Positions 5,179-59,755 of a DNA stretch of 64,000 bases are shown piece by piece. The notes below the pieces were generated by a model. The model worked only from the letters and a program-made list of their open reading frames with translations. It searched no databases and was not told the DNA's origin. The translations under genes were made by a program, and so were the position numbers. Positions within the stretch are counted from its first letter, which is position 1. Every line of letters starts with the position of its first letter. The stretch is from Paracoccus albicereus (GTDB taxonomy: Bacteria; Pseudomonadota; Alphaproteobacteria; Rhodobacterales; Rhodobacteraceae): positions 1-64,000 of the forward strand of contig NZ_JAKZEU010000005.1 of the NCBI RefSeq assembly GCF_024359525.1. Reading direction: 5' to 3'.

Positions 5179-6962
5179 CGGAGCATTTGTGGGAAGTCCC
5201 TTCGTCTTGGGAATGGACAGTCATCAAGGTACTCGGGGACATCGTTTCCGGTGCCACTCCTTCAACCAAGGTCCGCGACTATTGGGACGGAGACATCATC
5301 TGGTTCGCGCCATCTGACCTCACTGGATATAGACAGAAATTCATAGCGCGCGGCGCAAAAACACTGACCGAAGAGGGCCTTGCAAACTCGTCGGCGCGGA
5401 TCATGCCCGCTGGCAGTGTGATGTTTTCATCCCGCGCTCCGGTTGGATACGTCGCTATTAATTCGGTGCCGGCTGCAACAAATCAGGGGTTCAAGTCGGT
5501 GGTTCCGTACACCGGCATTTTCAACGAATACCTGTATCACTATCTCAAAGCCTCCAAACAAATGGCCGAGCAACGCGCGACCGGCACGACGTTCAAAGAA
5601 CTCTCTGGCGCGGCCTTCGGTGTGCTTCCGGCTCCGCTCCCTCCTACCAACGAACAACGCCGCATCGTTGAGAAGATCGAGGCGATGTTCGACGAGATCG
5701 ACAAGGGGGTCGAGAGCCTGCAAGCGGCGCGCACCACCCTCAGCCTCTACCGCCAGTCCCTGCTGAAATCCGCCTTCGAAGGCCGCCTCACCGCCGACTG
5801 GCGCGCGCAGAACGCCGACAAACTGGAAGCCCCCAAAACCCTCCTCGCCCGCATCCAGCACGAACGCGACACCCGCTACAAAGCCGCCCTCGACGCCTGG
5901 CAAGACGCCCTCGCCCAGTGGCGCGCCTATGGTGAGAAGGGCAAGAAACCCGCGAAGCCAAAGCGGCCGCGGGACATTGCAGCCAAAGCAACTGACATCG
6001 GTATACACGGATGGACCATGATGCCGCTCGGCCTGCTTATCGACGAACCGGCATACGGGACGTCGAAGAAGAGCGACTACGATGGTGGTAATAAAGGCGT
6101 TCTGCGCATCCCTAACATCGCGGCTGGGGTGATAGACGCGACCGACCTCAAGTCTTCGAACTTCGACGAGGCGGAGCTTGAGCAATACCAATTGATCGAA
6201 GGCGACGTGCTGACCATTCGATCGAACGGAAGCCTTTCATTGGTCGGCAAGCCAGCATTGGTTCGACCAGTTGACACGCAATTCGTCTATGCAGGCTATC
6301 TGATACGCCTTCGCCCCATACCCGGATCGCTGGTTCCCAAGAACCTCGTCTATCTGATGATGGAGCCGACCGTTCGCGGCCAAATCGAGAACAAGGCGAA
6401 GTCCACGAGCGGCGTCAACAACATCAACGCGAAGGAGCTGCAGGAACTACAAGTCCCAATCTGCTCCGCTGACGAGCAATCCGAAATCGTCCGCATCCTC
6501 GACGCACGGCTCGAAGCCGCCGACGCACTCGAAGCCGAGATCGACGCCGCCCTAACCCGCGCCGACGCCCTGCGCCAATCCATCCTGAAAAAAGCCTTCT
6601 CCGGCCACCTCGTCCCCCAGGACCCCAACGACGAACCCGCCTCCGCTCTGCTGGAGCGGATCAAGGCTGAGAAGGCCGAAAGAGACCAAGCGGCCAAACG
6701 CGACAGAAAATCTGCGCCACCACGCACACCCAAGGCAAGGAGGCCGACATTGACCGACCTGATCGAAGTGCTCGAAGAGCAGAAAAGCTGGATCTCGGCC
6801 GCGAAGGCGGCCCAGGAGTTGGGGATCGGCGATGGATCGACCTCAGACGACGTCGAGGCGTTTTATCTCCAGCTCAAAGATTTTGTCGAAGACGGTGCCA
6901 TCGACGTTGAAAGGCGCGGTAACGAAGATTGGTTGCGCCTTGCGAAAACCGAGGTGAGCTGA
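5175..6962 (+). CDS. hsdS: Type I restriction enzyme specificity subunit S
   Basis: A 595-residue DNA-recognition subunit, longer than the usual 400-450. Two target-recognition domains are visible, one beginning at WEVPSSWEWTVIKVLGDIVSG and one at GWTMMPLGLLIDEPAYGTSK. Each is followed by a conserved helical spacer (NEQRRIVEKIEAMFDEIDKG and DEQSEIVRILDARLEAADAL) that sets the gap between half-sites. A C-terminal extension of about 70 residues (from LTDLIEVLEEQKSWISAAKA) looks like a small winged-helix and accounts for some of the extra length. It overlaps hsdR by ATGA and the following ATPase gene by TGATG, so all are translationally coupled. Confidence 0.93.
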   Translation: MTEHLWEVPSSWEWTVIKVLGDIVSGATPSTKVRDYWDGDIIWFAPSDLTGYRQKFIARGAKTLTEEGLANSSARIMPAGSVMFSSRAPVGYVAINSVPAATNQGFKSVVPYTGIFNEYLYHYLKASKQMAEQRATGTTFKELSGAAFGVLPAPLPPTNEQRRIVEKIEAMFDEIDKGVESLQAARTTLSLYRQSLLKSAFEGRLTADWRAQNADKLEAPKTLLARIQHERDTRYKAALDAWQDALAQWRAYGEKGKKPAKPKRPRDIAAKATDIGIHGWTMMPLGLLIDEPAYGTSKKSDYDGGNKGVLRIPNIAAGVIDATDLKSSNFDEAELEQYQLIEGDVLTIRSNGSLSLVGKPALVRPVDTQFVYAGYLIRLRPIPGSLVPKNLVYLMMEPTVRGQIENKAKSTSGVNNINAKELQELQVPICSADEQSEIVRILDARLEAADALEAEIDAALTRADALRQSILKKAFSGHLVPQDPNDEPASALLERIKAEKAERDQAAKRDRKSAPPRTPKARRPTLTDLIEVLEEQKSWISAAKAAQELGIGDGSTSDDVEAFYLQLKDFVEDGAIDVERRGNEDWLRLAKTEVS

Positions 6963-8593
6963 TGCGCATCGATTGGCTTTGGGTGGACGAGTACAAGAAC
7001 CTCAGGGACCTGACAATTGATTTCTCTCAGGATCACCTGATTACCGTGCTGATCGGTCGGAACGGTACCGGCAAGTCCAATGTTCTCGAAGCCCTGACTG
7101 TCATCTTTCGCGACCTCTTGATGTCGGAGCGTGTGCCATCGCTCAAGTATCGCATCGCCTATGAAATCCAGGACCGCTGGGTATTTATCGACGCTGACCC
7201 CAACCGAAAGGAGGTCTACCGAGCAAAGACAGTCAGGAAGGACGAGCATCCAGAACCCTATCCTGTCGGCGCATCTTTCGATGATCTTGAGGGAAAAACG
7301 ATCAGCAGAACGAAACTCATCGGCGAAGCATCAGAGCATCTGCCGCGCTTCCTGTTCGGTTATTACTCAGGTGAAAGCGAGCGGATGAGGGAGGTTTTCC
7401 GCGCCTACCTCAAGAACTACGACGACAAGCTGATCGCGGATAACGACCCTGGCCTGAAGCGAATGTTCTTCGCCGAGCCTGTTCACAGCAACTTCGTGCT
7501 GCTGTCGTTCATTGTGAACAACAAAGCTCAGACCGACGCATTTCTGCAAAAGCAACTTGGCCTGGAAGACGGTGGCATAGAATCCGTTCTGTTCGTCCTG
7601 AAGCAGCCATATTGGTACAATAATAAGGCGACAGGAGGCGATAGTCGCTTCTGGAACTCAAAAGGAGTCGTCCGCGATTTCTTGAGCAAGCTATATGAAA
7701 TTTCGCTCGCCCCGATTCGTATCAAGCGTCGGGAGATGTATGATGTTCGACGATCCAGAACTTTAGAGTACCTGTACCTGTATGCCAAGGATATTGATGC
7801 CCTGCGAGAGCTGGCAAAGGGAAAAACGTCGGCTGAGTTTTTCCGCGATCTTGAGAGCACACACGTTTCCGATCTGATCGACGAAGTTCGGATCAGGGTC
7901 AAACTAAAGAAAAATGATGGATCGGTGACTTTCCGCGAATTGAGCGAGGGGGAGCAACAGTTGCTTACGGTTCTAGGCCTGCTGCAGTTCACCTCCGCCG
8001 AAGAAAGCCTGTTCCTCCTCGACGAACCCGATACTCATCTCAACCCACGCTGGAGCGTCGAGTACATCCAGCATATTCGAGATTTTCTCAAGGATGACAA
8101 CGACAATACTCAATCCAGCCATGTCCTTCTGGCCACGCACAACCCGATTGCAGTTGCTGAGCTTCTGAAGGAGCAAGTACAGATCTTGAAGCGTGACGAC
8201 GAAACGCTCAACATTTCTGCAGAAGAACCAAGCGTGGACCCGATGGGTATGGGATATGCCGGCGTGGTAACGAGTGAGATGTTTGACCTGAACGCTGCAG
8301 TGGACACCACGACCCAGAAACTGCTGGAAACTCAGCGTACACTCTCTGCGAAAAGTCGCCTAACCAAGACAGAGAAAGAAGAACTCTTAGAGGCAACCAA
8401 TAAGCTCGAAGATTTTGGATTTCACTACCAGATGCGAGATCCAGTTTATACAGAATACCTACGTGCTCGTGCGGAACGCACAGCACTAGTGGCTTCCGAC
8501 ACTGTTCAAAAAGCGAAAAGTCTAGATCCAGATGAGGCCCGGAAACTCGTGGAAGGCGCTTTAACGAGATCGTCGGGAAAGGCGGATCAGTGA
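6962..8593 (+). CDS. PtuA-like AAA/ABC-type ATPase embedded in the type I operon
   Basis: A 543-residue SMC/RecF-like ATPase. It has Walker A GRNGTGKS (residues 32-39), an ABC signature LSEGEQQ (about 326-332), Walker B SLFLLDEPDTHLNP and the downstream ATHNPIAVAEL switch. This is the architecture of restriction-associated AAA ATPases and of PtuA in the Septu anti-phage system. The next gene encodes an HNH protein of the PtuB type and overlaps by GTGA, the arrangement expected for Septu, in which the ATPase controls the nuclease. I chose ATG at 6962 because it overlaps the hsdS stop. The PtuA assignment is from domain order and partner gene; a role only in the restriction complex is the alternative. 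Confidence 0.85.
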   Translation: MRIDWLWVDEYKNLRDLTIDFSQDHLITVLIGRNGTGKSNVLEALTVIFRDLLMSERVPSLKYRIAYEIQDRWVFIDADPNRKEVYRAKTVRKDEHPEPYPVGASFDDLEGKTISRTKLIGEASEHLPRFLFGYYSGESERMREVFRAYLKNYDDKLIADNDPGLKRMFFAEPVHSNFVLLSFIVNNKAQTDAFLQKQLGLEDGGIESVLFVLKQPYWYNNKATGGDSRFWNSKGVVRDFLSKLYEISLAPIRIKRREMYDVRRSRTLEYLYLYAKDIDALRELAKGKTSAEFFRDLESTHVSDLIDEVRIRVKLKKNDGSVTFRELSEGEQQLLTVLGLLQFTSAEESLFLLDEPDTHLNPRWSVEYIQHIRDFLKDDNDNTQSSHVLLATHNPIAVAELLKEQVQILKRDDETLNISAEEPSVDPMGMGYAGVVTSEMFDLNAAVDTTTQKLLETQRTLSAKSRLTKTEKEELLEATNKLEDFGFHYQMRDPVYTEYLRARAERTALVASDTVQKAKSLDPDEARKLVEGALTRSSGKADQ

Positions 8594-9369
8594 GATACAT
8601 TGATCTTGCGTTTACTAGCAGACCTGAAGCCTTTGACGAGCGCGCAGCTGCCGCGCTTGCGGACGGGCCCGCGAGAATTGATGATCACTCAAGCGTATGG
8701 CGCGACTGCAAGGATCACCTCAAGGCAGCTTCTTACCAAAAGTGCTTTTACTGTGAGTCCAAGGACCTACGGTCCGACGGAGCCGTAGATCACTTCCGAC
8801 CGAAATCAGTTTATCCTTGGTCTGCGTTCACGTTTTCGAACTTTCGGTTTGCGTGTACGTTCTGCAACAGTCTTCGTAAGGACAAAGAGACTGGGAAGAC
8901 CGGAGGAAAAGGAAACCAGTTTCCTTTGTTCGAGGAAGCCCCAAGAGCGACCTGTTGCGCAGAAGAATGCTGCGAGCAACCAAAGCTCATTGATCCATGT
9001 AGAGCGGGCGATCCTTTGGAAATCGACTTTTCTTCGGATGGCCGAGCAGTGCCAGCTTACGCAGATGAGGGGGATAAACGGTTTGAACGCGGTAAGGTGT
9101 CAATTAATGCATATCATCTGAATCACACAGCGTTCGTTGAAGAACGGAGGAAGCACGCAATTATCTTGGAGGAAAAGATAAAGGCTGCGTGCGTCGCGCA
9201 TGAAAGCTATGCCGCCGGAAATCTTGACGCGAGAACACGACTCGATGATGCAATCTCGGATCTTCATCGGGCAATCCAACCACAAGCAACGTATTCGGTG
9301 TTCGCCAGAAGGGTGCTGAATTGGCATCGAGAAAATCCACTAATCGAAGCCGTTTTGACGACGGCGTAG
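8590..9369 (+). CDS. PtuB-like HNH endonuclease (TIGR02646-type)
   Basis: A 259-residue nuclease of the kind paired with PtuA-like ATPases and also used as an effector of retron Ec78. The HNH core is clear: CFYC (Cys52, Cys55), DHFRPK with Asp67-His68, Asn84 in SNFRFACTFCN, and the second pair Cys89/Cys92. The GGKGNQFPLF segment and a second cysteine cluster (CCAEECC) are also present. The start is GTG at 8590, overlapping the ATPase stop. Cleavage of nucleic acid upon infection is inferred from the family. It is followed after eight bases by hsdM. Confidence 0.87.
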   Translation: MRYIDLAFTSRPEAFDERAAAALADGPARIDDHSSVWRDCKDHLKAASYQKCFYCESKDLRSDGAVDHFRPKSVYPWSAFTFSNFRFACTFCNSLRKDKETGKTGGKGNQFPLFEEAPRATCCAEECCEQPKLIDPCRAGDPLEIDFSSDGRAVPAYADEGDKRFERGKVSINAYHLNHTAFVEERRKHAIILEEKIKAACVAHESYAAGNLDARTRLDDAISDLHRAIQPQATYSVFARRVLNWHRENPLIEAVLTTA

Positions 9370-9377
9370 GGTAAACA

Positions 9378-10850
9378 ATGAACACTTCACCGATTGTCTC
9401 CAAGGTCTGGAGTTTCTGCACCACGCTGCGTGACGACGGCGTTGGCTACGGCGACTACCTCGAGCAACTAACCTACCTCATCTTCCTCAAGATGGCGGAC
9501 GAATACGCCAAGCCCCCCTACAGCCGCGATGTGGGCATCCCAGATGGGTTCGACTGGGCCAGCCTGACCTCGCGCCGCGGGGCGGCACTGGAAGCGCACT
9601 ACGTCATGCTGCTGCGTAAGCTGGGCGAGCAGAAAGGCATGCTCGGCCAGATCTTCACCAAGGCGCAGAACAAGATCACCGATCCGGCGAAGCTGTTCCG
9701 TCTGATCGACATGGTGGACGGCACGAAGTGGGTGACGCTTGGGGCCGATGTCAAAGGCGACATCTACGAAGGGCTGCTCGAGCGCAACGCTGAGGATACG
9801 AAATCGGGCGCCGGCCAATATTTCACGCCGCGTGCCTTGATCCGCGCAATGGTCGAATGCGTCCGTCCTGAGCCCGGCAAGACCATCGCCGACCCGGCCT
9901 GCGGGACCGGCGGCTTCTTCCTCGCCGCGCATGATTTCCTGACCGACCAGGACAACTATCCGCTCGACAAGGATCAGAAGGCGTTCCTGAAGCACGCGAC
10001 CTTCTTCGGCAACGAGATCGTCGCCGGTACTCGGCGCCTTTGCCTGATGAACATGTTCCTGCACGGGATCGGCGAGATGACCGGGGACACGTTGGTGTCA
10101 CCGGCCGACGCACTGATCTCGCCGCCGTCGGCGACCTTCGACTACGTTCTTGCGAACCCGCCTTTTGGGAAGAAGAGTTCGATGAGCTTCACGAACGCGG
10201 AAGGCGAGCAGGAGACCGAAGACCTCACCTACAATCGCCAGGATTTCTGGGCGACCACGTCGAACAAGCAGCTGAACTTCGTCCAGCACATCCGGACCAT
10301 GCTGAAGACAACGGGGCGGGCTGCCGTGGTCGTGCCCGACAATGTCCTGTTCGAGGGCGGCGCGGGAGAGACCATACGGCGCAAACTGCTTCAGACGACT
10401 GATCTGCACACCATTCTCCGACTGCCCACAGGCATCTTCTATGCACAGGGCGTGAAGGCGAACGTGATCTTCTTCGACAACCGCGCAGCCAGCCCTGATC
10501 CACAGACCTCTAAGGTTTGGTACTACGATTACCGGACCAACGTGCATCACACGTTGAAGCAGAAGCCCCTGACCTACGCGCATCTCGAGGACTTTGTGTC
10601 CTGCTACAATCCACGGAACCGACATGAGCGCAGCCCAACGTGGAGCGAGGACAGCCCCGACGGACGCTGGCGCCCGTTCGACCGGGAAGAACTTCTGGCC
10701 CGCGACAAGGCTAGCCTCGATCTGTTCTGGCTGCGGGATGCGTCGATGACCGACCTCAAGAACCTGCCGGAACCGGAGGTTTTGGCAGAGGAAATAATGG
10801 AGAACCTTCGTTCTGCTCTAGCGAGTTTCGAAGCAGTTTCGGCTGAGTGA
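9378..10850 (+). CDS. hsdM: Type I restriction-modification methylase subunit M
   Basis: A 490-residue N6-adenine DNA methyltransferase that pairs with HsdS to modify host sites and joins HsdR for restriction. It has an N-terminal HsdM helical domain (VWSFCTTLRDDGVGYGDYLE), the S-adenosylmethionine motif ADPACGTGGF (171-180) and the catalytic NPPF motif (ANPPFGKKS, about residue 259). It is the last gene of the operon, eight bases after the HNH gene, with only a weak GTAGGG as a ribosome-binding site. Separation of M from S by two defence genes is unusual. Confidence 0.95.
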   Translation: MNTSPIVSKVWSFCTTLRDDGVGYGDYLEQLTYLIFLKMADEYAKPPYSRDVGIPDGFDWASLTSRRGAALEAHYVMLLRKLGEQKGMLGQIFTKAQNKITDPAKLFRLIDMVDGTKWVTLGADVKGDIYEGLLERNAEDTKSGAGQYFTPRALIRAMVECVRPEPGKTIADPACGTGGFFLAAHDFLTDQDNYPLDKDQKAFLKHATFFGNEIVAGTRRLCLMNMFLHGIGEMTGDTLVSPADALISPPSATFDYVLANPPFGKKSSMSFTNAEGEQETEDLTYNRQDFWATTSNKQLNFVQHIRTMLKTTGRAAVVVPDNVLFEGGAGETIRRKLLQTTDLHTILRLPTGIFYAQGVKANVIFFDNRAASPDPQTSKVWYYDYRTNVHHTLKQKPLTYAHLEDFVSCYNPRNRHERSPTWSEDSPDGRWRPFDREELLARDKASLDLFWLRDASMTDLKNLPEPEVLAEEIMENLRSALASFEAVSAE

Positions 10851-11264
10851 GCGCCGCGTCCTGTGCGATATGGCTCGGAGAGCTTTGGGCTTCGGTTCCA
10901 TCTCGGCGAGAGCGACTGGAATCGAAGTGTTCAGCTGCAGCCTCGCAAAAAAAGCTTCTTTACAGCGGGTTACAAGCTATTCACCATATCCGCGTAGTCA
11001 TGAGGTCCGGAGAATATCGGCCCTGAGAGACCGCTTCCGTGCCTCCTAGCGGAGGAAGCAGTACTCAGCTTGTCCCGCAAACCCCTTTGAAAACACGATA
11101 AAAGTCGCGCACCCCCGGGCCCAGAGAAACAGTTCGCGAGGGCAAGTGGCGGAGGGGATGGGCCTGATATCCAACCTTCTCCACCAAGCTGACACTGCCC
11201 GCCCTGCGCTTAAGTGTATGAAGGTGCGAGATAATATCGTTCTTCCGTCAATTCGTGCTCCTGA
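10851..11264. other. Intergenic region without a recognisable gene
   Basis: These 414 bases lie between the 3' ends of hsdM (+) and the CDF exporter (-). I see no convincing reading frame, RNA gene or strong intrinsic terminator. A six-base inverted pair, GCTTCC/GGAAGC near 11034-11061, could weakly terminate either operon. The right junction of the defence island probably falls here. Confidence 0.5.
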
Positions 11265-49087: not shown

Positions 49088-49333
49088 TCACTCCGCGCTC
49101 CGCACCCGGATCGCCTCGAACAGCCGCCGCAGGGCGAAGGAGCGCGCGATGCTCACCACGGTGAAGATCGCGCCCATCTTGAGGTTCTGCGCCAGCGTCG
49201 TGTGCAGCCCGAAGATTGGGAAGATCAGGATCTGCGTCACGACTGCGACGCCGTAGCCCACGGCAACGTTTGCAATAGCCTCGACCAGCGACATGGCCCG
49301 GCTCTGTTTCATCCCTGCTGTCCCCGTCATCAT
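49088..49333 (-). CDS. Small phage membrane protein (DUF7220-like)
   Basis: An 81-residue protein with two hydrophobic helices: AIANVAVGYGVAVVTQILIF, FPIFGLHTTLAQNLKMGAIF, then TVVSIARSFALRRLFEAIR. This matches small prophage membrane proteins I know as DUF7220. ATG 49333 overlaps the upstream stop (ATGA); an internal ATG at 49312 (MKQSRAMSL) is the alternative. A role in lysis or superinfection exclusion is possible but unsupported. Confidence 0.75.
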   Translation of the reverse strand: MMTGTAGMKQSRAMSLVEAIANVAVGYGVAVVTQILIFPIFGLHTTLAQNLKMGAIFTVVSIARSFALRRLFEAIRVRSAE

Positions 49334-50385
49334 TCGCAAAGGCCATACTGGCTCGAGCAGGACAGCCCCTCGTCGCTCCAGCTGAGAAGATCGTACTGCC
49401 GCCCCCCGCGCGCGGTCTTGGCCCATCGGAACACCGCATCGGCTCCCGGCCACTCCGCGTCGTTGCAGAGGTCCGACAGTCGCCGCCGCCGCTCCCGGTC
49501 AAACTCTTTGCTCTCCGGGTCCAGATCTGGATGGGCTCCCTGCGTCTCCGCGATCGCGCGGCGCTTGAGCTTCTTGACCAGTGCCGCCCCTTGCGGGGTC
49601 TTGTCGGCTGCGAAGAACGTGGCGATGCCGCGTTTGGACGCGGCCATAACCGCCGCTTCATACTCAAGCAGACGGTCGATCGCCCAAGGATGCCGTCGGC
49701 CGATAGCAGCCAGTTCCACCTTGCCCGCATTGATGCAGGGGAAGCAGCCAACCCGTCCCATGCCCTGCAGGTAAAGCGGGTTTGGCGGCATTCCGTGCGC
49801 CCGCGCGAAGGCGAAGACGTTGTCGGCGCTCCAGTGAATCAGCGGCCGAAAGAGCACCATGTCGTGCCGATCCGAGAACCGGACGCGTTGCGTGAAGGGC
49901 GCCTGAGCACGATTGCGGCTCTCATCTCGGCGTACGCCGAGCCATTGAACGACGGGGCCTGTCTCGAGTGCCGGGCCCACGCACGTGTCGAATACCGCCC
50001 GTTCCTTCAGGTATTCGGTGCAGAACTGCGCCTTCCGACTCGGGAAACGCCCTTTCCACAAACAGAGGTCCAGCATCGGGATGCCCGTGGGGACTAGCGC
50101 CGCCAACGCCCTCTCGACCGTCGTCTCCGGTACGCCCTCTTCACGCCAGACTGTCTCTACGTACCGTCGCTTGCGTGCGATCTCGGCAGAGAAGTCGGCG
50201 CGCACCATCTCGACCACGGGGCCGCCGGTGCGCTCAGAGAGCTGCGCGGCATATTCCAGCGTTACCGGATGTTCATGGCCCGTGTCGGCCATGATGGCTC
50301 GGAACGGACGACCGCGGCGGAGCGCGAGCAGGTAGACGGCGGTGGAATCCTTTCCACCGCTGATGTTGACGAAATGCGCGGCCAT
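49330..50385 (-). CDS. PAPS-reductase-like PP-loop protein
   Basis: A 351-residue member of the PAPS reductase/ATP-pyrophosphatase superfamily. The PP-loop is HFVNISGGKDSTAVYLLALR near the N-terminus; a C-terminal CFPCINAGK and paired cysteines (CSSQYGLC) could bind an Fe-S cluster. It starts four bases after a phage ParB-methyltransferase gene. Prophage versions are thought to act on nucleotides, DNA or tRNA rather than in sulfate assimilation, because no other sulfur gene is near. I start at ATG 50385, where similarity begins. Confidence 0.88.
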   Translation of the reverse strand: MAAHFVNISGGKDSTAVYLLALRRGRPFRAIMADTGHEHPVTLEYAAQLSERTGGPVVEMVRADFSAEIARKRRYVETVWREEGVPETTVERALAALVPTGIPMLDLCLWKGRFPSRKAQFCTEYLKERAVFDTCVGPALETGPVVQWLGVRRDESRNRAQAPFTQRVRFSDRHDMVLFRPLIHWSADNVFAFARAHGMPPNPLYLQGMGRVGCFPCINAGKVELAAIGRRHPWAIDRLLEYEAAVMAASKRGIATFFAADKTPQGAALVKKLKRRAIAETQGAHPDLDPESKEFDRERRRRLSDLCNDAEWPGADAVFRWAKTARGGRQYDLLSWSDEGLSCSSQYGLCE

Positions 50386-50389
50386 GACT

Positions 50390-51736
50390 TCAGCCAGGCA
50401 CCGCCTGGACGTCCGCCTCGGCCGCGGCCGGGGTCTCGCCAAGCCGCTCGGCCTTCACGTGCGCGAAGGTCCGGCCGTCGCCGTCGAGGATTGCGTCCTT
50501 GCCGGTCTCGGCCTGCCAGCGTTCCACGGCGACATCGACATAGGCCGGGCTGATCTCCATCGCGAAGACGCGACGGCTGTTGGCCTCGCCGGCCATGATC
50601 TGAGAGCCGGAGCCGGAGAACGGCTCGTAGCATAGCCCGCCACGGGCGACGTGCTGGCGCATCGGGATCCCGAAGGCGTCGAGCGGTTTCGGCGTCGGGT
50701 GATCGGGACGGTCGTCCTTGGCGAAGCTGGGCAGCGCCCATGTCGATGGCAGCGTTTCCTCGGCCACCTTCGGCGGGCGGTTCGGGCGGCGCCAGCCCAT
50801 GAAGCAGGGCTCGTGTTTCCACAGGTAGTGCGAGCGGGTCAGAACACCGCGGTCCTTCACCCAGATGATCTGCTGGTGGACGAAGGCCCCGGCCTTCTCC
50901 CAGCAGGCCTCCAGCATCGCTTGGCGGCGCGAGGCGTGCCAGCAGTACCAGGCCGCGTCGTCCGTGATCGCCTCCGCGACGGCGGCGGCGATGAACCCAT
51001 CGTAGAGATCGGCCCCCTGGCTACTGTCGTCCCAGGTGACGCCGTAGGACTGCGACCAGTCCTTGTTCCGCGTCGGATGGTTCGAGCCGTCGTAATCGAC
51101 GAGGTATGGCGGGTCTGTCGCGAACAGCACCGCGCGTTCGCCGTTCATCAGGCGGCGCACGTCGTCGTGCGAGGTCGAGTCCCCGCAGAGAAGCCGGTGA
51201 TCGCCGAGGATCCAGAGATCGCCCGTGCGCGACGCGGGATTACGCGGCGGCTCGGGGATGGTCACCGGCGGCACGGAGCCCCCGGCGCCACCTTCTTCTT
51301 CGCCGCCCCCGTCCGGATCGAAGGCCAAGAGCTTGTCGAGTTCGCCGTCGGAGAAGCCAACCAGCGACAGGTCGTAATCGTCAGCCAGCAGGTCCTGCAG
51401 CTCGACCGAGAGCAGCGCCTCGTCCCAGGTGCCGAGTTCCGTCAGCTTGTTGTCCGCGATCCGGTAGGCCCGGCGCTGCGCCTCGGTCAGGTGCCCCAGC
51501 ACGATCACCGGCGCTTCGGTCAGCCCGAGTTGCGTCGCGGCCAGCACCCGGCCATGGCCCGCGATCAACTCACCGTCCTCTGCCACGAGGCAGGGCACGG
51601 TCCAGCCGAACTCGGCCATGCTGGCGGCGATCTTCGCCACCTGGTCCGCGCCATGCGCCTTCGCGTTCTTCGCGTAGGGCTGCAGGCGCGCAAGCGGCCA
51701 GGTCTCGATCCGCTCGGGGGCGAAGGCGAGGGTCAT
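50390..51736 (-). CDS. ParB-domain DNA methyltransferase
   Basis: A 448-residue fusion. The N-terminal ParB/Srx-like domain (about 10-125) reads IETWPLARLQPYAKNAKAHG and GELIAGHGRVLAATQLGL. The C-terminal N4/N6 DNA methyltransferase has the catalytic ATDPPYLVDYDG, HPTPKPLDAFGIPM and the S-adenosylmethionine motif EPFSGSGSQIMAGE. Such fusions are common in prophages and protect phage DNA or change transcription. The gene follows a 451-base gap with repeated TGGAYYCCGG sequences. Confidence 0.93.
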   Translation of the reverse strand: MTLAFAPERIETWPLARLQPYAKNAKAHGADQVAKIAASMAEFGWTVPCLVAEDGELIAGHGRVLAATQLGLTEAPVIVLGHLTEAQRRAYRIADNKLTELGTWDEALLSVELQDLLADDYDLSLVGFSDGELDKLLAFDPDGGGEEEGGAGGSVPPVTIPEPPRNPASRTGDLWILGDHRLLCGDSTSHDDVRRLMNGERAVLFATDPPYLVDYDGSNHPTRNKDWSQSYGVTWDDSSQGADLYDGFIAAAVAEAITDDAAWYCWHASRRQAMLEACWEKAGAFVHQQIIWVKDRGVLTRSHYLWKHEPCFMGWRRPNRPPKVAEETLPSTWALPSFAKDDRPDHPTPKPLDAFGIPMRQHVARGGLCYEPFSGSGSQIMAGEANSRRVFAMEISPAYVDVAVERWQAETGKDAILDGDGRTFAHVKAERLGETPAAAEADVQAVPG

Positions 51737-52613: not shown

Positions 52614-52806
52614 TCGCAGCCTCCCGGTCGTGCGTGCGAGGCCCGTACAGCTTCTCGCCAAGCTGACGGACCCGCTCGCGCTCCGGCCAGGTCAGGCGGT
52701 GGTCGTCGACGGAGACGGCCAGCACACCCTCGTCATGCCAGCCATCGCGCTTCACCTGGTCGGGATCCCGGCGCGTACCGCCGTAGCCTTTAGGGTGCCA
52801 CCTCAT
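52606..52806 (-). CDS. Small phage protein downstream of the RuvC-like gene
   Basis: A 66-residue charged protein (RWHPKGYGGTRRDPDQVKRD, GWHDEGVLAVSVDDHRLTWP). ATG 52806 overlaps the RuvC-like stop by ATGA and its end overlaps the DUF6362 start, so it is well embedded in the operon. Function unknown. Confidence 0.75.
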   Translation of the reverse strand: MRWHPKGYGGTRRDPDQVKRDGWHDEGVLAVSVDDHRLTWPERERVRQLGEKLYGPRTHDREAANG

Positions 52807-53324
52807 CCCAGGCCCCCGTTCGTCTCGATCGCCCAGTGCAGGATGGCGATCGCGTCGGCCTCGTTGTCGTCGGTGGGTGAGAACCCTCGTGCTCGCGCCG
52901 CGGCGATCATCGCTTCCTTCGGCGCGTTGCCCTTTCCGGTGGCGTGGCGTTTGATCGTTCCGACCGGAACGCCTTGGTAGGGGATGCCGCGCAGCTCGGC
53001 CCACGAGGTCAGGGTTGCCATCAACCCGCCGTAGATGTGGGCCGCGTCGGTCCCAGCGTGGCGACGCACCTCCTCGAACCAGATCGCGGCGATGGGCCCT
53101 GACAGACGGTCGAGTTCGGTCAGCCAGTTGGTGAAACGGAGGTAGCGCATGCCGCCACCGTCGAAGCGACCGGGGCGGAAGCTGACTGTGCCACTGGTGG
53201 TCAATCCGTCATGGCTGCGGAGCGCCCAACCGGTCGTGGTGCCGAGATCGAGGGCGAGGATGCAGGACCGGTTGATCGCGTCCGGCTCGGGGCGGACGTC
53301 CTGCGCGGGGATCGGTGTGTTCAT
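52803..53324 (-). CDS. RuvC-like Holliday junction resolvase
   Basis: A 173-residue RNase H-fold protein: the first catalytic Asp lies in ILALDLGTTTGWALR, a glutamate in IAAIWFEEVRRHAGTDAAHI, and the C-terminal acidic pair in FSPTDDNEADAIAILHWA. Phage versions resolve branched recombination or replication intermediates before packaging. It is the first gene downstream (on the minus strand) of the GGTTGGGAC repeat cluster. Confidence 0.87.
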   Translation of the reverse strand: MNTPIPAQDVRPEPDAINRSCILALDLGTTTGWALRSHDGLTTSGTVSFRPGRFDGGGMRYLRFTNWLTELDRLSGPIAAIWFEEVRRHAGTDAAHIYGGLMATLTSWAELRGIPYQGVPVGTIKRHATGKGNAPKEAMIAAARARGFSPTDDNEADAIAILHWAIETNGGLG

Positions 53325-53453
53325 CGTGAAGGCTCATAAGCTGTGGGCCTTCGGCTTTGGTCGCCGCAAGATGTAGCATCCGCCGGTCCTCGGCCAAAGC
53401 GAAAACGACGAGGGACGACGAGGCCTGCGAAGATCGACGCGCCGCCCGTCCCG

Positions 53454-53749
53454 GTCCCAACCTCCGACCGCTTGGTCCCAACCTTCGAGGGGGTTGGGAC
53501 AGTCCTTTATCGTGTTACTTCAATGATTTGACCGGATGCGGCCCCAACCTCGGTGTCCCCAACGGGGGTCCTTCTCTTTTCGTATAGAAAAACATGTTCC
53601 CGACCTTTTCCGTTCTCCCACATGAATGTGTAGCAAAAGGTTGGGACCACAGGGTGAGGTTGGGGACACCGTTGTTTTTGAACGGCTTTTCGTGTCCCCA
53701 ACCCCCTCGGGAGGTTGGGACAGGGTTGGGCCACCGGGGAGGTTGGGAC
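53454..53749. repeat. Cluster of eleven GGTTGGGAC-like repeats
   Basis: Copies of GGTTGGGAC or close variants occur at 53454-53462, 53475-53483, 53492-53500, 53542-53549, 53555-53563, 53639-53647, 53659-53668, 53694-53703, 53713-53721, 53724-53732 and 53741-53749, about half in each orientation. A notably AT-richer stretch (about 53564-53638) lies between the two groups. The cluster fills most of the 639-base gap between the RuvC-like gene and the divergent + strand gene, and no reading frame there is convincing. Iterons with an AT-rich melting zone, or an operator array, are the two readings. Confidence 0.85.
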
Positions 53750-53963
53750 AGGCAATCAGGCAGGCAGATGGTCTGAGTGCCGGCAAATCAGAAACTGCTG
53801 GCTGCCTCGTCGGCTTCGGTCACGAGAGAAAGGACAAATCCGGTATGCGAACACCTCTCCAATTGTTACTATATCTGGGATCCCGAAGAAGGCCTTACCT
53901 CAACCGGTTGTGGCTTTAGGGTTAGGAAATGCGAGTATTGGCGTGGCGAGCGAAAAAGTCTCC

Positions 53964-56900
53964 ATGATGACCGACGAAGTGCCCTCTCCTTCGGAGTTCA
54001 TGCGCATGCGGCGCCCAGAGCAGTTTTCGGACAGCTCTGAACGCTCGCTCTATCGTTTGTCGCGGGACGTCCTGGAACAACGATTGGAGAACCTTACTGC
54101 ACGCAACGACATGCAGGCGTTCGAGCGGTTCGCGAAGGCTCTCTGCGAGCGCTTTGTCTGTCCGTTCCTCAAGCCGGCAACGGGTCCGGAAGGTGGGGGA
54201 GATGGCAAGGTCGATACCGAGAGCATCAGGACTGCCGAGGAGGTCGTCGAGCGCCACTTCGATGGTCGCGCTGACCGCGGCACCGAGAGGTGGGGTTTTG
54301 CTTTCAGTACCAAGAAGGATTGGAAGGCAAAGGCACGCGCTGATGTGGCTGGGATGGTCGCAACTGGGCGAGGCTACAAGACGGCATTCTTCGTCACATC
54401 TCGTTACGCGCGATCAAAAGATCGCTCTGAGATGCAAGATGCGCTGGCAGCCGAACATGGCATCTTGGTGGAAATCCTCGACCGGAATTGGATTGTCGAC
54501 AACGTCATTGAAAAGGATGCCCGCGATCTCGCCTATATCCATCTCGGCATTGGCGAAAAGGTCGAGGAATCGAAGATTGGGCCGCGCGACAGGGAACGCC
54601 GGGAACGGTTGGCGTCGTTGGATCGTGACCTCGAAGCTCCCGACCAGGCAGCGGACGCGCCGCTGGCCGTAGTGAAATGCGCGCTGGACGCCGCAATCGT
54701 GTCCCGAGAACTGGAGCGACCACGATATGAGACTGACGGGCGCTTTGAGCGTGCCATACGGCTCGCCGACCGCCATGGAGCGGACCGACACAGCCTCGCG
54801 GCGCGCTACGAGAAGCTTTGGACGGCACTGCACTGGTTCGACGACATTGGGGCCGTCCGCGATGGCTATCGCGACATTGAGGAGCGCGCCCTCGCTCTTA
54901 ATCACGCATCCGCAATCGAGAGGGTCACGAACCTGCTTTTCGGGCTGTCAGGACCGTTTGCCCAAGGCACCTCAGACGGTGCGGCTGTTGACGTACAAGC
55001 CGCATGGGAACGTCTGGAAGCCAGTCTTGAGGCGATGTGGAATGACGAGAGCCGGCCCAACAACAGGCTGACCGCCCGGACGCTTCTGTTGATGCGTGGC
55101 ATTATGGTGGACCTTGCAGCCAGAGACTTGAGTTCGATCGAAACACGACTATCGCAGATCATCGAAATCATCGACGCCGCCCGCGGATTGATGGAGTATG
55201 ACTTTGATCGCCTAGAGCAGCTCGTGGAAATGCTCGGCGAGACGCTCGGAGGAAACGGAACGTTGTCCCGCGTCGTCGACCATCTTGGCGACGCGCTTCA
55301 ACAACGGCGCGGTGAGACGGCACTTGGCATGCTTTTCTTGCGCCGCGCTCGGCAACTTGACATCGAACGGGATCGGTTCGAGGTCATCCGCCGCCTTGGC
55401 ACCGCTGTCGAATGCCTGACAAAGGAAGAGCACCTCGATGAGTTGGTGGAAGCGGCATACCTGCTCGCTGTAGCCTACCGCGGGGCCGGGCTACCATGGG
55501 CGGCTAGAGCCACCGCTTTGTTCGGTCTATCAGCAATCGTGATACAAGCCGAAAAGTCGTCGGTGCCCCCGAGTGAGATACTTCCCACATTCCTCCTGTT
55601 GGGATGGATCGATCTGGAACTTGGTCTTGTCGCGGAGCTACTGGACGTCGTCGCAGTCTCACGCGGCATCCTTGCATCGTTGCCCTTTGACGAAGATTCG
55701 AAGAATAGAGCACGCGAAACACTTCAGACTTTCGACTTCTCGCTCGGAGGCCAATTCCTGAATGCTCGGGAGGCCGATCTGTCAGCCTTCCAGAGCTTGC
55801 CCGATGTCCTCATGGCAATCGAGTTACCGGCAGCATCCACTTGCCTCTTATATGCTCTTGGCCACGAAGACGAAGCTCTCGGCCCGGCGATCGAAGATCG
55901 CGAAACAAATCTTGAAATGCTTGCTCAGCTTTCGGCGCAGCCCGCTTGCGCCCTGCCTCGCCATGGCCTGATCGGAGAATTCGACGGTCCATTCGCCTTT
56001 ACCACGGATGTCCTCGGGCTGCAGCTGACGATCTCCGGCGACAAGGGAGCGAGATGCGCCTTGGTTGCGCAACTCCTGATCTCAATGGCTGAAACGCTTC
56101 TGGCGACCGGTTTCGAAGCCGGCTTCGCCGCACATCGCGAGCGCTACGAGGTGCTTGTAGTGTTGAGCGATGTGATTGCGGCTCCTTGCCCGAAGTTTGA
56201 CGAGACCGCGTCGCAGGGCCTGCTCGAATGGCCAGCCGATTGGAATCCGGCTGAGCCAAGGACAGCATCTGATGCGCGAGATGCATTGCTGACGACAGTC
56301 GCCTACATCATTGGCCAGACCTGCATCTTAAAGGACGGGCCCGGGTCGCTTGAGACGCTCCTCGACAGCGATACGGCAATCAGCCGGATCATGACTTCGC
56401 TCGGATTGGGTGTCAGCATGAGCCGGGTATTGAAGGAGACCCCGGTAACGCCCGCCAGCATCGCGGATCATTTTCGTGCTGATCCCCCAAGGTCTTTTCC
56501 TTTTCGAGCGGTTCTTCCATTGCCCGAAGTTTCCGCGCCAGAAGGACCGACGTCAAATGACACGACGGATCAACCATTCGGGGTAATACGCAGCCATCGA
56601 GAACTGAAGACCCGATCTCTCATTGACGTCCCGCTCTGGAACGCCGCGAAATGGAGGGGTGTCGCGGTAATGAAGCTGTCACCTGTCGGTCTACCCATTC
56701 TGGCTTTGATGTTCGAGAATTCTGATGCAGGTTATCGCATCTTCGAAGCCTGGCGGGAGAGGCTGGGGTCGGAAGATGAGGCCGGTGAACTCCTGGTGAC
56801 TATCGTGACAGACCTGCCGGGTCGTCCGAGACCGCACTACGCCGTCATTCTGACGACCAACATGGAAGCGCGGCCGGTGATCGGCGAGATGTTTTTCGTG

Positions 56901-57134
56901 GTCGCGAGATCACTGATCATGGAGCCGAGTTCGGGAGAGAACCTGCAGCTATTCCTCCGTGATTGGGGGCGCAACGGAGCTTTCCTGATCGGCGGCGCTT
57001 CAATGCCCCAGGGTGCCAGGCCACCCGAACTCCGGAAGGAAACCACGATCCTCAAGAGGCACCTGCGGGTGGTGCGGTACGAGGATCTGGAAGAATACGA
57101 AGTCGGTTTTCTTGGTGGCTCGACGGGTGTTTAG
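53964..57134 (+). CDS. Large nuclease-like protein with helical-repeat region (candidate defence gene)
   Basis: A 1056-residue protein with no P-loop that I can see. The N-terminal 200 residues look like a PD-(D/E)XK (Mrr-like) nuclease: FERFAKALCERFVCPFLKPA, GGGDGKVDTE (77-86), WGFAFSTKKDWKAK (110-123) and VEILDRNWIVDNVI. The long middle is made of amphipathic helices, TPR-like (FERAIRLADRHGADRHSLAA, YLLAVAYRGAGLPWAARATA), and the last 200 residues form a separate alpha/beta region. Codon use and GC are lower than in the phage genes around it. It is alone on the + strand between the repeat cluster and the convergent primase gene. A stand-alone abortive or restriction system is inferred. The start is uncertain; GTG 53943 is an alternative. 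Confidence 0.82.
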   Translation: MMTDEVPSPSEFMRMRRPEQFSDSSERSLYRLSRDVLEQRLENLTARNDMQAFERFAKALCERFVCPFLKPATGPEGGGDGKVDTESIRTAEEVVERHFDGRADRGTERWGFAFSTKKDWKAKARADVAGMVATGRGYKTAFFVTSRYARSKDRSEMQDALAAEHGILVEILDRNWIVDNVIEKDARDLAYIHLGIGEKVEESKIGPRDRERRERLASLDRDLEAPDQAADAPLAVVKCALDAAIVSRELERPRYETDGRFERAIRLADRHGADRHSLAARYEKLWTALHWFDDIGAVRDGYRDIEERALALNHASAIERVTNLLFGLSGPFAQGTSDGAAVDVQAAWERLEASLEAMWNDESRPNNRLTARTLLLMRGIMVDLAARDLSSIETRLSQIIEIIDAARGLMEYDFDRLEQLVEMLGETLGGNGTLSRVVDHLGDALQQRRGETALGMLFLRRARQLDIERDRFEVIRRLGTAVECLTKEEHLDELVEAAYLLAVAYRGAGLPWAARATALFGLSAIVIQAEKSSVPPSEILPTFLLLGWIDLELGLVAELLDVVAVSRGILASLPFDEDSKNRARETLQTFDFSLGGQFLNAREADLSAFQSLPDVLMAIELPAASTCLLYALGHEDEALGPAIEDRETNLEMLAQLSAQPACALPRHGLIGEFDGPFAFTTDVLGLQLTISGDKGARCALVAQLLISMAETLLATGFEAGFAAHRERYEVLVVLSDVIAAPCPKFDETASQGLLEWPADWNPAEPRTASDARDALLTTVAYIIGQTCILKDGPGSLETLLDSDTAISRIMTSLGLGVSMSRVLKETPVTPASIADHFRADPPRSFPFRAVLPLPEVSAPEGPTSNDTTDQPFGVIRSHRELKTRSLIDVPLWNAAKWRGVAVMKLSPVGLPILALMFENSDAGYRIFEAWRERLGSEDEAGELLVTIVTDLPGRPRPHYAVILTTNMEARPVIGEMFFVVARSLIMEPSSGENLQLFLRDWGRNGAFLIGGASMPQGARPPELRKETTILKRHLRVVRYEDLEEYEVGFLGGSTGV

Positions 57135-57157
57135 ATCGTCCCATGCTTTTGGGTCGG

Positions 57158-59755
57158 TCACATCCGATCCTGCCCCCTCCGATACCGCCATTCCCGCGGC
57201 GCTTCGCGCCCGCCCTCGTCGCGCCGCCGGTACCGCTCCCAGCCGTTCGCCTTGAGGTAGGCTGAGACGCGCATCTGGTCGCCGCGGGTCCAGCGGGCGG
57301 GTTCGAGCCCGATGGCCTCCTCAAGGATCTCGCCGACCGACACGTCGGCCAGCGGCTCCGGGCGCGGAACGCTCTCCGTCCGGGAATTGCCGTAGTCGGG
57401 GAAGCCGTCGGAGACGGTGCGGATCTCGTGGGTCAGCCAGTGTTCGATCAGGTCGTCCCAGGCGTCGGACTGGTAGCGGCGGCCCTGTTCCTCGCGGGCT
57501 TCCTCCAGCAGCGCAGGGTCGTCGATCCACCAGATCGCGCCGGCGCGGAAGCGGTGGACGGCTTCGGCCCAGAGCTGGTCCCGGTCGCGGGCGAGCGCCG
57601 CGATGTCGATGGCGCCGCAGCGGAGCGGCCAGAAGCGACGGTTGCCGGTCTCGTCGCGCAGATAGGTGTCGGGGTTCACAGTGCCGGCGAAGACGCACTG
57701 GCGCGGCACCTCGACTGTGTAGCGGCCATAGGGCGGGCGGAAGCGGTCGGTGGTGCGCGTCAAGAACGCCTTGATGCGCGAGACCTCGGCGCGGCCGATG
57801 GCGTCGAGTTCAGCGATCTCGACGATCCAGACACCCTGCATGTGCAGCGCCGCGTCCTTCGACCCGAGCTCCGGCAGCTCGTCGGTAAACCATTCCTCGC
57901 CGGCCAGCACCTTGATCGCGGTGGACTTGCGCGCGCCCTGCGGGCCTTCGAGGATCAGCATGTGGTCGGCCTTCACACCGGGACGGTAGATGCGGGCGAC
58001 GGCCGAGATCAGCCAGAGCGCGCCGATGGTGTGGTTGAACGCCGTGGGTTCCGCGCCGAGATAGGTGCTGGTCCAGGTCTCGATCCGGGGCGTGCCGTCC
58101 CATTTCAGGGTGTCGAGCCAGTCACGGACGGGATGGATGCGCAGTTCGCGGGCGACGGCGCCGACGGCGCGGCTGACGACCACCGGCGCCACGTTGATGC
58201 CGCGGAGTTGCAGCCATTCGGCGGTGCGGATGTCGTCGGCGTCCTCCCAGGGGCGCGGGAGCGAGGCAGCGGCGCCGTCCCACGGGAGTGGCTGACGCAC
58301 TACGATCTCCTGCCCGAATTCATCGAAGGCGAGCACGCCGGCGAAGGCCGGATCGGAGGTCAGCGCCACGATGACATTGGCCTCGTTGCGCTCGGGCGCA
58401 CCGGCCAGATCGAGCCTGAGGCGCCTGAACCAGGTGGGCTTCGGGATCGGCGCATTCGGATCGCCGGTGGCGTTTACGCGGCGGCGGAGCTCGGCCAGTT
58501 GCTGGGTCAGGACCGACATGCCGATACCGGTCGCGGACTTGATCCGCGCGATGACCTGCCGCTCGGGCAACGGGTCGAGTTTCGCCAGCGCGATGCGCCC
58601 CAGCAGCGTGGACAGCGCTTCGAACTCGGGCGGATTGGTCAGTGCCTCGGCCGCGGCGATCAGGGTGGCGGGATCGTCGGCGGAGGCGACGATGGGCGTG
58701 GCCGTCTCGGCGTCGACCGGGTCCGCGGGCTGCGGCTCCACCGTGGCGTTTGCCTCACGCGCGTAATCCTCGGCGCGGGCGCCGCGCAGCAGGTCGTCGT
58801 TGAAGTCGTCGCCATGCAGCGGCGCGACGATCTCGTTCGGGATGTCGGCCCGGTTCAGGCGGTCCGAGAGCGTCGCGGCCGCCTGGCAACCGGCGTCGCC
58901 GGCATCGGCATAGATGGTGATGCGCCGGGTGCCCTCGGACCACTGGAACCGCGCCAGACCGTCGGCCGACAGTGCTGCCCAGACAGATGTGCCGAATAGC
59001 GCGTGGGCAGCGAGTGCCGTCTCGATCCCCTCGGCGATGCCAATGTGCCCGTCCTCCGGCATCGGGAAGAGCCGGACCACGCCATCCTTCACGCTGCCAA
59101 GCATCTTCTTGCCCGCGGGCGCCTTGGCGCTGCCGTCGTCGAGCAGGAAGGTACGGTGGATGCCCGGCGCGCGCTCCCCGTCCGACAGCCGCAGGATCGC
59201 GATGAGGCCGGGCCAGCCGCGGCAGCTGTGGAAGTCCGGAAGATCGGGATGGAACAGAAGGTCGGGCGAGCCGGGATCCGAGACGCCGCGGGCGCGCAGA
59301 TAGGTCTCGCCAGGCGTACCGGCGATCGGCACGGCCCCGTCGACCAGCCGCGCGATCTCGGCAGAGTGATCCGGGCGCGCGCGCATTGGCGAAGCCGGCA
59401 CGGGCCGCCGCGCGGGATGGTCTATCCCCGCAAGCCGCGCCGCCTCATCGAAGAGCGCGCCGTCGCAGAGGCCGGTCGCCTGCGCGATGAGGTCGATGGG
59501 ACCGGCCCGCTCGCCAGTGGCGTAGTCGAATCCCCAGCCGGCATAGGGTCCGTCGAGATGGATGGTGCAGGAGCCCTCCTTGCGCGCCGGTCGACCGGAG
59601 AGGTCTGCGCAGCGCAAGGAACGGCGGTCACGTGCAAGCCGGGCTTGGGGAAAGAGCCCCGGCAGCCAGTCGGCGGCCGTGCAAGCAAGCCGCTCCTTCA
59701 CCGCCGCCAGATCGTGCCGGGTCTTCGGGACCGCGATGTCGTTCAGGTCGATCAT
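57158..59755 (-). CDS. Phage primase-helicase (Toprim plus VapE/VirE-type ATPase)
   Basis: An 865-residue fusion. An N-terminal zinc-ribbon-like part (LRCADLSGRPARKEGSCTIH) leads to a Toprim segment (GIAEGIETALAAHALFGTSV, ITIYADAGDAGCQAA). The C-terminal half is a VapE/VirE-type superfamily 3 ATPase: Walker A LEGPQGARKSTAIK, then WIVEIAELDAIGRAEVSRIK and RTTDRFRPPYGRYTVEVPRQ. It would prime and unwind phage DNA. ATG 59755 lies five bases after the helicase gene and begins MIDLN, a start shared with two other genes upstream. Confidence 0.92.
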   Translation of the reverse strand: MIDLNDIAVPKTRHDLAAVKERLACTAADWLPGLFPQARLARDRRSLRCADLSGRPARKEGSCTIHLDGPYAGWGFDYATGERAGPIDLIAQATGLCDGALFDEAARLAGIDHPARRPVPASPMRARPDHSAEIARLVDGAVPIAGTPGETYLRARGVSDPGSPDLLFHPDLPDFHSCRGWPGLIAILRLSDGERAPGIHRTFLLDDGSAKAPAGKKMLGSVKDGVVRLFPMPEDGHIGIAEGIETALAAHALFGTSVWAALSADGLARFQWSEGTRRITIYADAGDAGCQAAATLSDRLNRADIPNEIVAPLHGDDFNDDLLRGARAEDYAREANATVEPQPADPVDAETATPIVASADDPATLIAAAEALTNPPEFEALSTLLGRIALAKLDPLPERQVIARIKSATGIGMSVLTQQLAELRRRVNATGDPNAPIPKPTWFRRLRLDLAGAPERNEANVIVALTSDPAFAGVLAFDEFGQEIVVRQPLPWDGAAASLPRPWEDADDIRTAEWLQLRGINVAPVVVSRAVGAVARELRIHPVRDWLDTLKWDGTPRIETWTSTYLGAEPTAFNHTIGALWLISAVARIYRPGVKADHMLILEGPQGARKSTAIKVLAGEEWFTDELPELGSKDAALHMQGVWIVEIAELDAIGRAEVSRIKAFLTRTTDRFRPPYGRYTVEVPRQCVFAGTVNPDTYLRDETGNRRFWPLRCGAIDIAALARDRDQLWAEAVHRFRAGAIWWIDDPALLEEAREEQGRRYQSDAWDDLIEHWLTHEIRTVSDGFPDYGNSRTESVPRPEPLADVSVGEILEEAIGLEPARWTRGDQMRVSAYLKANGWERYRRRDEGGREAPREWRYRRGQDRM

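Follow-up and report, generated by a model that had tools for sequence, protein, structure and literature searches.

A probable undescribed prophage immune protein: a nuclease-like head with an exchangeable C-terminal domain

A prophage in Paracoccus albicereus (contig NZ_JAKZEU010000005.1, positions 1 to 64,000; this whole 64,000-nucleotide stretch is hereafter the window) carries at 53964-57134, on the + strand, a gene for a protein of 1056 residues, here named P0001. We read P0001 as a single-protein anti-phage immune nuclease, carried as prophage cargo and switched on through its C-terminal half, and give this reading a probability of about 0.6. It probably represents a not yet described immune system whose tail is exchangeable. 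Its C-terminal domain (CTD) is common to some SEFIR/TIR proteins and, judged by sequence, appears to be one module on two unrelated effectors, an Mrr-type nuclease and SEFIR. An earlier note on this DNA had proposed P0001 as an anti-phage defence candidate. The defence reading is favoured because other occupants of its prophage slot include known systems, because several plasmid relatives have defence-type neighbours by annotation, and because the CTD is common to SEFIR proteins. The gene and the predicted parts of its product are as follows.

53964..57134, + strand: whole gene, 1056 residues (open frame, homologues)
53964..54578, + strand: residues 1-205, predicted Mrr/Avs4-like nuclease domain (invariant columns in 16 sequences, AlphaFold2 model, Avs4 structure match, highest conservation)
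54579..55952, + strand: residues 206-663, helical TPR-like body (helices in the AlphaFold2 model; TPR proteins prominent in fold searches)
55953..56408, + strand: residues 664-815, alpha/beta domain, the least conserved folded part (model, pairwise identities)
56409..56615, + strand: residues 816-884, low-confidence linker (predicted local distance difference test score, pLDDT, below 50 for 815-884)
56616..57131, + strand: residues 885-1056, CTD, common to the SEFIR/TIR proteins L022, L023 and L034 (hhalign, own model)

The translation of 53964-57134 is free of stops. A mechanical call of open reading frames (ORFs) extends the frame upstream to a TTG at 53715, and homology to relatives starts within the first dozen residues of the 1056-residue form, not at that TTG. 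Near full-length plasmid homologues (27-38% identity) and motif residues invariant in 16 of 16 aligned N-termini argue that the ORF is not a product of chance. A full-length AlphaFold2 model built from 7 sequences reached a mean pLDDT of 75.3 and a predicted template modelling score (pTM) of 0.55. The earlier note's outline of a nuclease-like head, a helical body and a C-terminal alpha/beta part agrees with the ORF and the predicted structure, in which the alpha/beta part forms two domains (about 664-815 and 885-1045). Across 11 sequences, mean pairwise identity is highest in the head (52%), 35% in the CTD and, at 24%, lowest among the folded parts in residues 666-815. P0001 has no significant family match in Pfam, NCBIfam or PADLOC; a Spore_III_AB match (E 0.09) and the designed helical protein 8g4k (E 3e-4) were dropped and taken as helix-composition matches. 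The lack of a nucleoside triphosphatase (NTPase) motif, already remarked on in that note, extends to the family: the Walker A pattern [AG]x4GK[ST] is absent from all 13 members checked, one of them a 722-residue part, and no NTPase family in Pfam matches P0001 or these members.

Structure comparison supports the assignment of the head as an Mrr/Avs4-type nuclease-like domain. Residues 33-197 of the model align in VIA with residues 2-174 of 8dgf_B, which by its PDB title is Avs4 bound to a phage portal, at Z 10.2 and a root-mean-square deviation of 3.2 over 139 residues with 16% identity. We take this N-terminal part of Avs4 to be an Mrr-like nuclease. Among the 50 matches listed, 8dgf_B is the sole row covering just the head, the others matching mainly helices, and no Mrr structure besides Avs4 is among the fold matches listed. 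A restriction-endonuclease-like fold is suggested by the Avs4 match together with the predicted order of elements, both taken from the full-length model. The motif GGGDGKVDTE, from which the head had earlier been called nuclease-like, occupies residues 77-86, and FAFSTKKDWKAK occupies residues 112-123. Residues invariant in all 16 N-termini include G77-G79, D80, D84, E86, W110, F112, S115, K117, W120, K123 and D127. The head of P0001 may be catalytically active and may have DNA as its substrate. A distant relative of 1078 residues (L030, positions 7676-10912 in G750) shares a related head and some of the helical body with the family, and no CTD was detected in it. The corresponding stretches of its head read GGDRGRDFET and FACSLERRIEAKI, which, aligned by eye, keep both aspartates, the serine and the second lysine of the head motif.

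The link to a second effector class comes from the other end of the protein. The family profile matched, in the CTD part only, open frames of 372 and 373 residues in two genomes, whose first 140-150 residues are SEFIR/TIR, and a third SEFIR-CTD protein sits on a Lactiplantibacillus plasmid. These three proteins (L022, L023 and L034) match SEFIR in Pfam and the bSEFIR model of PADLOC (E 1.2e-61, 2.3e-56 and 6.3e-57). Profile-profile comparison by hhalign of nine CTDs of the nuclease family with the three SEFIR CTDs gave a probability of 99.9 and an E-value of 1e-33 over 174 columns, and a tblastn search with the SEFIR CTD of L022 recovers the nuclease family and one TIR protein. A scan of viral contigs with the SEFIR CTD found no relative, and neither a SEFIR nor a TIR nor a bSEFIR domain was matched at E up to 1 in P0001 or the 13 members (Pfam, PADLOC). 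A tree built from 24 CTDs places the three SEFIR sequences, two of which have long terminal branches, on one side of a single branch (support 87/94); one exchange of effector is therefore enough.

The SEFIR-CTD proteins are 362-372 residues long and have neither a helical body nor a domain of the 664-815 type. With the helical body missing from these proteins, the CTD is the foremost candidate for an input module common to both classes. We suggest tentatively, at somewhat below even odds, that the CTD is a new recognition domain of a portable kind, so far without a detected match to a known fold, which has been joined to an Mrr-type nuclease via a TPR-like body and to SEFIR directly. It would then be a receptor module needing no NTPase switch, and one phage trigger could be read out by either DNA cutting or loss of NAD+. 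Modelled alone, the CTD reached a pLDDT of 84.8 and a pTM of 0.83 in the best of five models, which range down to 36.7. Fold searches gave at best an E-value of 0.1 in Foldseek (probability at most 0.14 among the 50 matches listed), a Z of 2.5 in VIA and an E-value of 0.05 in the viral library, and the CTD sequence profile had no significant match in the PDB (best E 0.46). These results are an absence of a match and no proof of a new fold.

Several related proposals were set aside. The CTD is not the general C-terminus of bSEFIR proteins: the PADLOC bSEFIR model matches 47 of 398 genomes, and 28 of 30 loci fetched from these lack the CTD at E 0.01, several of the loci being short or having stop-bearing frames. 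The long branch of the window protein in the CTD tree had suggested faster evolution of its CTD than in relatives, which identities did not bear out. An Ensifer fragment with a partial CTD beside a transposase (L035) was not counted as a third architecture. As an observation in its own right, bSEFIR-like proteins (L036-L044, L022, L023 and L034) combine heads of one kind with C-terminal parts that differ, a hint that their inputs differ too.

Between the head and the C-terminal half, the body can be called TPR-like, a description that is weakly supported. TPR chains such as LGN rank high for the helical part (Foldseek E 5e-4; VIA Z 11-12), such Z values being common for helical repeats. Pfam TPR models do not match the family, and the PADLOC TPR model matches one of 13 members at E 0.05. 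Because helical repeats score high in general, TPR likeness is a weak statement. Of the long TPR-like sensor body described in the earlier note, the fold searches thus weakly uphold the TPR-like part; the sensor role of the repeats does not follow, given that SEFIR proteins carry the CTD without such a body.

The genomic setting of P0001 is a prophage with terminase, portal, capsid, tape measure and tail genes, all on the - strand. Three features border the gene.

52803..53324, - strand: RuvC-like resolvase, one wall of the slot (phrog_159, E 9e-31)
53456..53747, both orientations: cluster of 10 GGTTGGG repeats, probably an iteron region of the phage backbone
57158..59878, - strand: VapE-type primase-helicase, the other wall (VapE-like domain, E 3e-83, and Toprim_3; phage helicase/primase families)

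By a crude gene prediction, no gene other than that of P0001 lies on the + strand from 49.3 to 63.4 kb. The guanine-cytosine (GC) content is 57.7-60.5% in four 1-kb windows over 53-57 kb, compared with 68.4% before them and 68.2-70.3% after. Both the lone opposite-strand position and the GC below that of the neighbours, as first noticed from the sequence, therefore stand.

The slot itself, at 53324-57158 in the window, is a prophage defence hotspot, in which variable cargo including known defence systems lies between two conserved phage genes. The VapE-type primase-helicase was used to survey the best 80 of 224 viral-contig relatives (L069-L148), 12 of which have no measurable slot. From the end of the primase-helicase to the RuvC-like gene, 35 of the 68 measured sites are short (419-866 bp) and 33 are occupied (1,578-6,785 bp). 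Slot GC is lower than that of its own locus in all 33 occupied sites (short sites were not part of this comparison), and the adjoining interval from RuvC to DUF6362 reaches 1 kb in only 1 of 60 cases. Representative cargo proteins (39) were scanned with PADLOC, in which 96 families matched; the first 25 of these, the matches listed, include IetA/IetS, RmrA/RmrT, LmuA/B/C, a CBASS cyclase with a phospholipase, AbiEi/AbiEii and PD-Lambda-2_B. We take Rmr to be the RosmerTA toxin-antitoxin system. One cargo protein from each of ten loci was also scanned singly, and six defence assignments were counted: AbiEii at L072, IetS at L073 and L083, RmrA at L076, a phospholipase effector at L098 and LmuA at L133. 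Seven further loci (L093, L097, L099, L100, L101, L105 and L139) fall in the cargo clusters of these six, so that at least 13 of 33 occupied slots hold defence cargo recognised by PADLOC, some of them near-copies. The cargo of L095 gave a weak capP match, and PADLOC matched none of the main cargo proteins scanned at L070, L081 and L112, the latter two in single scans. The cargo of L087 was not counted as Lamassu (LmuB, E 8e-21), as single SbcC, SbcD and metallophosphatase matches and the lengths of its two genes suggest an SbcCD pair. The present family is present on only 1 of the 80 related contigs (L102). Occupants left without an assignment include a 1352-residue protein (L081) and a 671-residue HATPase protein (L070), and the VapE-RuvC slot is a place to look for more undescribed systems.

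The repeat cluster, which the earlier note had observed at the border of the gene, is indeed adjacent: 10 of the 15 GGTTGGG copies in the window lie within 53456-53747. A tie to the gene was rejected. Of the 33 occupied slots, whose cargo varies, 28 have at least five GTTGGG copies, as does 1 of the 35 short slots, while at least five GTGGGAC copies occur in 21 of 35 short slots and in none of the 33 occupied ones. The repeats therefore go with the phage lineage rather than with the P0001 gene. They are probably part of the phage backbone and perhaps origin iterons, and the core of these iteron-like repeats differs between phage sublineages (GTTGGG or GTGGGAC).

Two further loci of the window can be recorded here. 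Within the prophage, a PAPS-reductase-like gene stands beside a ParB-like/DNA-methyltransferase fusion (49330-51736, - strand), possibly a link to DNA modification. Elsewhere, a type I restriction locus (ResIII/EcoEI_R_C, Methylase_S) is followed by a lower-GC AAA_21 ATPase gene (2428-8593, + strand).

Members of the family are few and scattered over Pseudomonadota, Cyanobacteriota, Bacillota and Planctomycetota. In tblastn searches, 14 of 72,556 plasmid records contained the family, with at least 80% query coverage at 27-38% identity in 11 cases, as did 1 of 50,697 phage records. Five loci lie on viral contigs; one of these proteins (L003) is 96% identical to P0001, its contig (L102) belonging to the same phage lineage. 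One contig of a Planctomycetota metagenome-assembled genome carries a member, in a search reaching close relatives only. Among the genomes of relatives, only the own genome of 101 has the family. Across the phylum set, it was found in 4 of 398 genomes, two full-length (own, G430) and two by the CTD only; across the class set, in 4 of 385, three full-length (own, G658, G763) and one as a distant relative (G750). In another class, the CTD profile found 3 of 321 genomes: G1098 and G981 encode full-length proteins of the nuclease type, whose sequences were followed as far as the head, and G385 encodes the SEFIR protein. Damaged copies also occur: L007 is truncated next to an IS5 element, L013 is fragmented, and L014 has a front-part remnant in another frame. 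A scan of viral contigs with the gut phage member L015 found no relative.

For 11 plasmid loci, neighbouring genes were read from annotation, a tally with no background rate behind it.

L004, L013: S8 peptidase with ATPase
L005: protein kinase
L006: DUF1837 and DEAD-box helicase, which we take to be a Hachiman pair (HamA being DUF1837)
L007: HipA toxin and HNH endonuclease
L009: SMEK-domain gene
L010: Tn7-like genes with kinase and phosphatase
L011: AbiEii-type and NACHT genes
L012: ParAB, RelE
L013, further: Fic and SAVED genes

By the same annotation, no candidate partner gene recurs in more than 2 of the 11 loci, which fits a one-gene system, and no phage structural gene is named in the 11 regions.

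Several observations weigh against reading P0001 as an immune nuclease switched on through its C-terminal half. In all 16 N-termini, a serine takes the acidic position of the usual (D/E)xK motif (S115-x-K117), which leaves catalysis uncertain, and in the distant relative L030 a glutamate appears at the position of K117 (aligned by eye). With sequence profiles alone, no nuclease is recovered from the PDB (best E 1.1 for the N-terminal profile) or from Pfam, and the full-length model is only moderate in quality, as its scores and its 7 sequences indicate. The CTD is present on only 2 of the 30 bSEFIR-model loci, those of G398 and G385, and it is no less conserved than the helical body, where a fast-evolving sensor might be less so. 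As to context, a second interval of these phages, from DUF6362 to the ParB-methyltransferase, is also variable (at least 1 kb in 22 of 45; L070-L143). Not all slot cargo is defence, as the SbcCD-like L087 indicates. Among the 11 plasmid loci, no defence-type neighbour was recognised at L008 and L014, and those at L009 and L012 are weak.

Other explanations must be weighed against this background. P0001 could be a type IV-like restriction enzyme, whose C-terminal half directly reads DNA that is modified or foreign, leaving the head to cut it, with no abortive infection. Mrr-type heads occur in modification-dependent restriction, and a lone gene without a methylase fits such an enzyme. We nevertheless regard it as improbable, as the CTD is also found on SEFIR proteins, and SEFIR systems are described (PMC12322248) as depleting NAD+ with an abortive phenotype, not as cutting DNA. 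That the CTD has no clear structural match to anything, DNA readers included, is a further and weaker point. The position of the gene in the prophage replication module would suit a phage function in lysogeny, replication or packaging, an account that we consider highly implausible: the gene is present in only one of the 80 related contigs surveyed (12 of them without a measurable slot), lies on the opposite strand and has lower GC, and plasmids from Pseudomonadota, Cyanobacteriota and Bacillota carry homologues of it, the 11 annotated regions naming no phage structural gene.

Less far from our preferred reading is a version in which the same defence nuclease senses through its helical body or the variable alpha/beta domain (664-815), the CTD being an assembly or autoinhibition module of both effector classes. 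This version is unlikely, though a more serious contender than the two above. In an AVAST-like TIR protein, TPRs have been suggested to be what senses infection (PMC9122126), and no folded part is less conserved than residues 666-815 (mean pairwise identity 24%; CTD 35%). However, the SEFIR-CTD proteins have neither the body nor the 664-815 domain, which leaves the CTD as their sole input region. The CTD is thus at least as good a sensor candidate as the helical repeats.

For an immune nuclease switched on through its C-terminal half, the mechanism we infer would run as follows. The resting protein would hold its Mrr/Avs4-type nuclease head inactive until, by way of its C-terminal half, it recognises a trigger that arises when a competing phage infects the cell, with the CTD as an exchangeable input module that is also used by some SEFIR proteins. 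The helical body may pass on the signal or mediate assembly. The released nuclease would then cut DNA, that of the phage and perhaps that of the host, and infection would be ended, probably with loss of the cell. Because SEFIR systems deplete NAD+ with an abortive phenotype, as PMC12322248 describes, one input domain may feed two killing outputs.

What head-plus-sensor immune proteins sense is often unknown, and a domain on two unrelated heads constitutes a natural experiment. If both heads respond to the same phage component, the CTD is a receptor; if not, it is a switch. Since it consists of a single gene and can be told by a clear motif, the family lends itself to testing.

The earlier description of P0001 as undescribed holds for Pfam, NCBIfam and PADLOC. 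The architecture was not described in titles or abstract starts in literature searches restricted to open-licence papers. Against novelty, one of the systems validated with DefensePredictor may be the P0001 family: PMC13092281 reports 31 additional validated systems, 13 with PD-(D/E)XK nuclease domains, and names TPR in figure legends. Single-protein head-plus-sensor immunity is already known; new, in that it was not found in the libraries or the literature searches, is an architecture without an NTPase and with a CTD common to SEFIR proteins.

Among known systems, P0001 most directly invites comparison with three. Like Avs4, a STAND NTPase immune sensor (8dgf) with which its N-terminal domain aligns, it is one large protein with an effector head and a helical part. 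Unlike Avs4, its family has no Walker A (0 of 13) and no sign of a STAND NTPase, and P0001 has 1056 residues, compared with 1534 in the listed 8dgf chain, and an extra CTD. With bSEFIR-type systems, which combine a SEFIR/TIR effector with a variable C-terminus, P0001 has in common the CTD borne by three SEFIR proteins, a domain absent from 28 of the 30 bSEFIR-model loci. Its head is nuclease-like and not SEFIR, however, and the CTD-bearing SEFIR proteins have no helical body. Finally, its slot resembles the hotspots of P2 and P4 prophages, described in PMC9122126 as small variable defence-cargo slots of about 1-5 kb between two conserved phage genes, but it belongs to another phage lineage and another position, from the VapE-type primase-helicase to RuvC.

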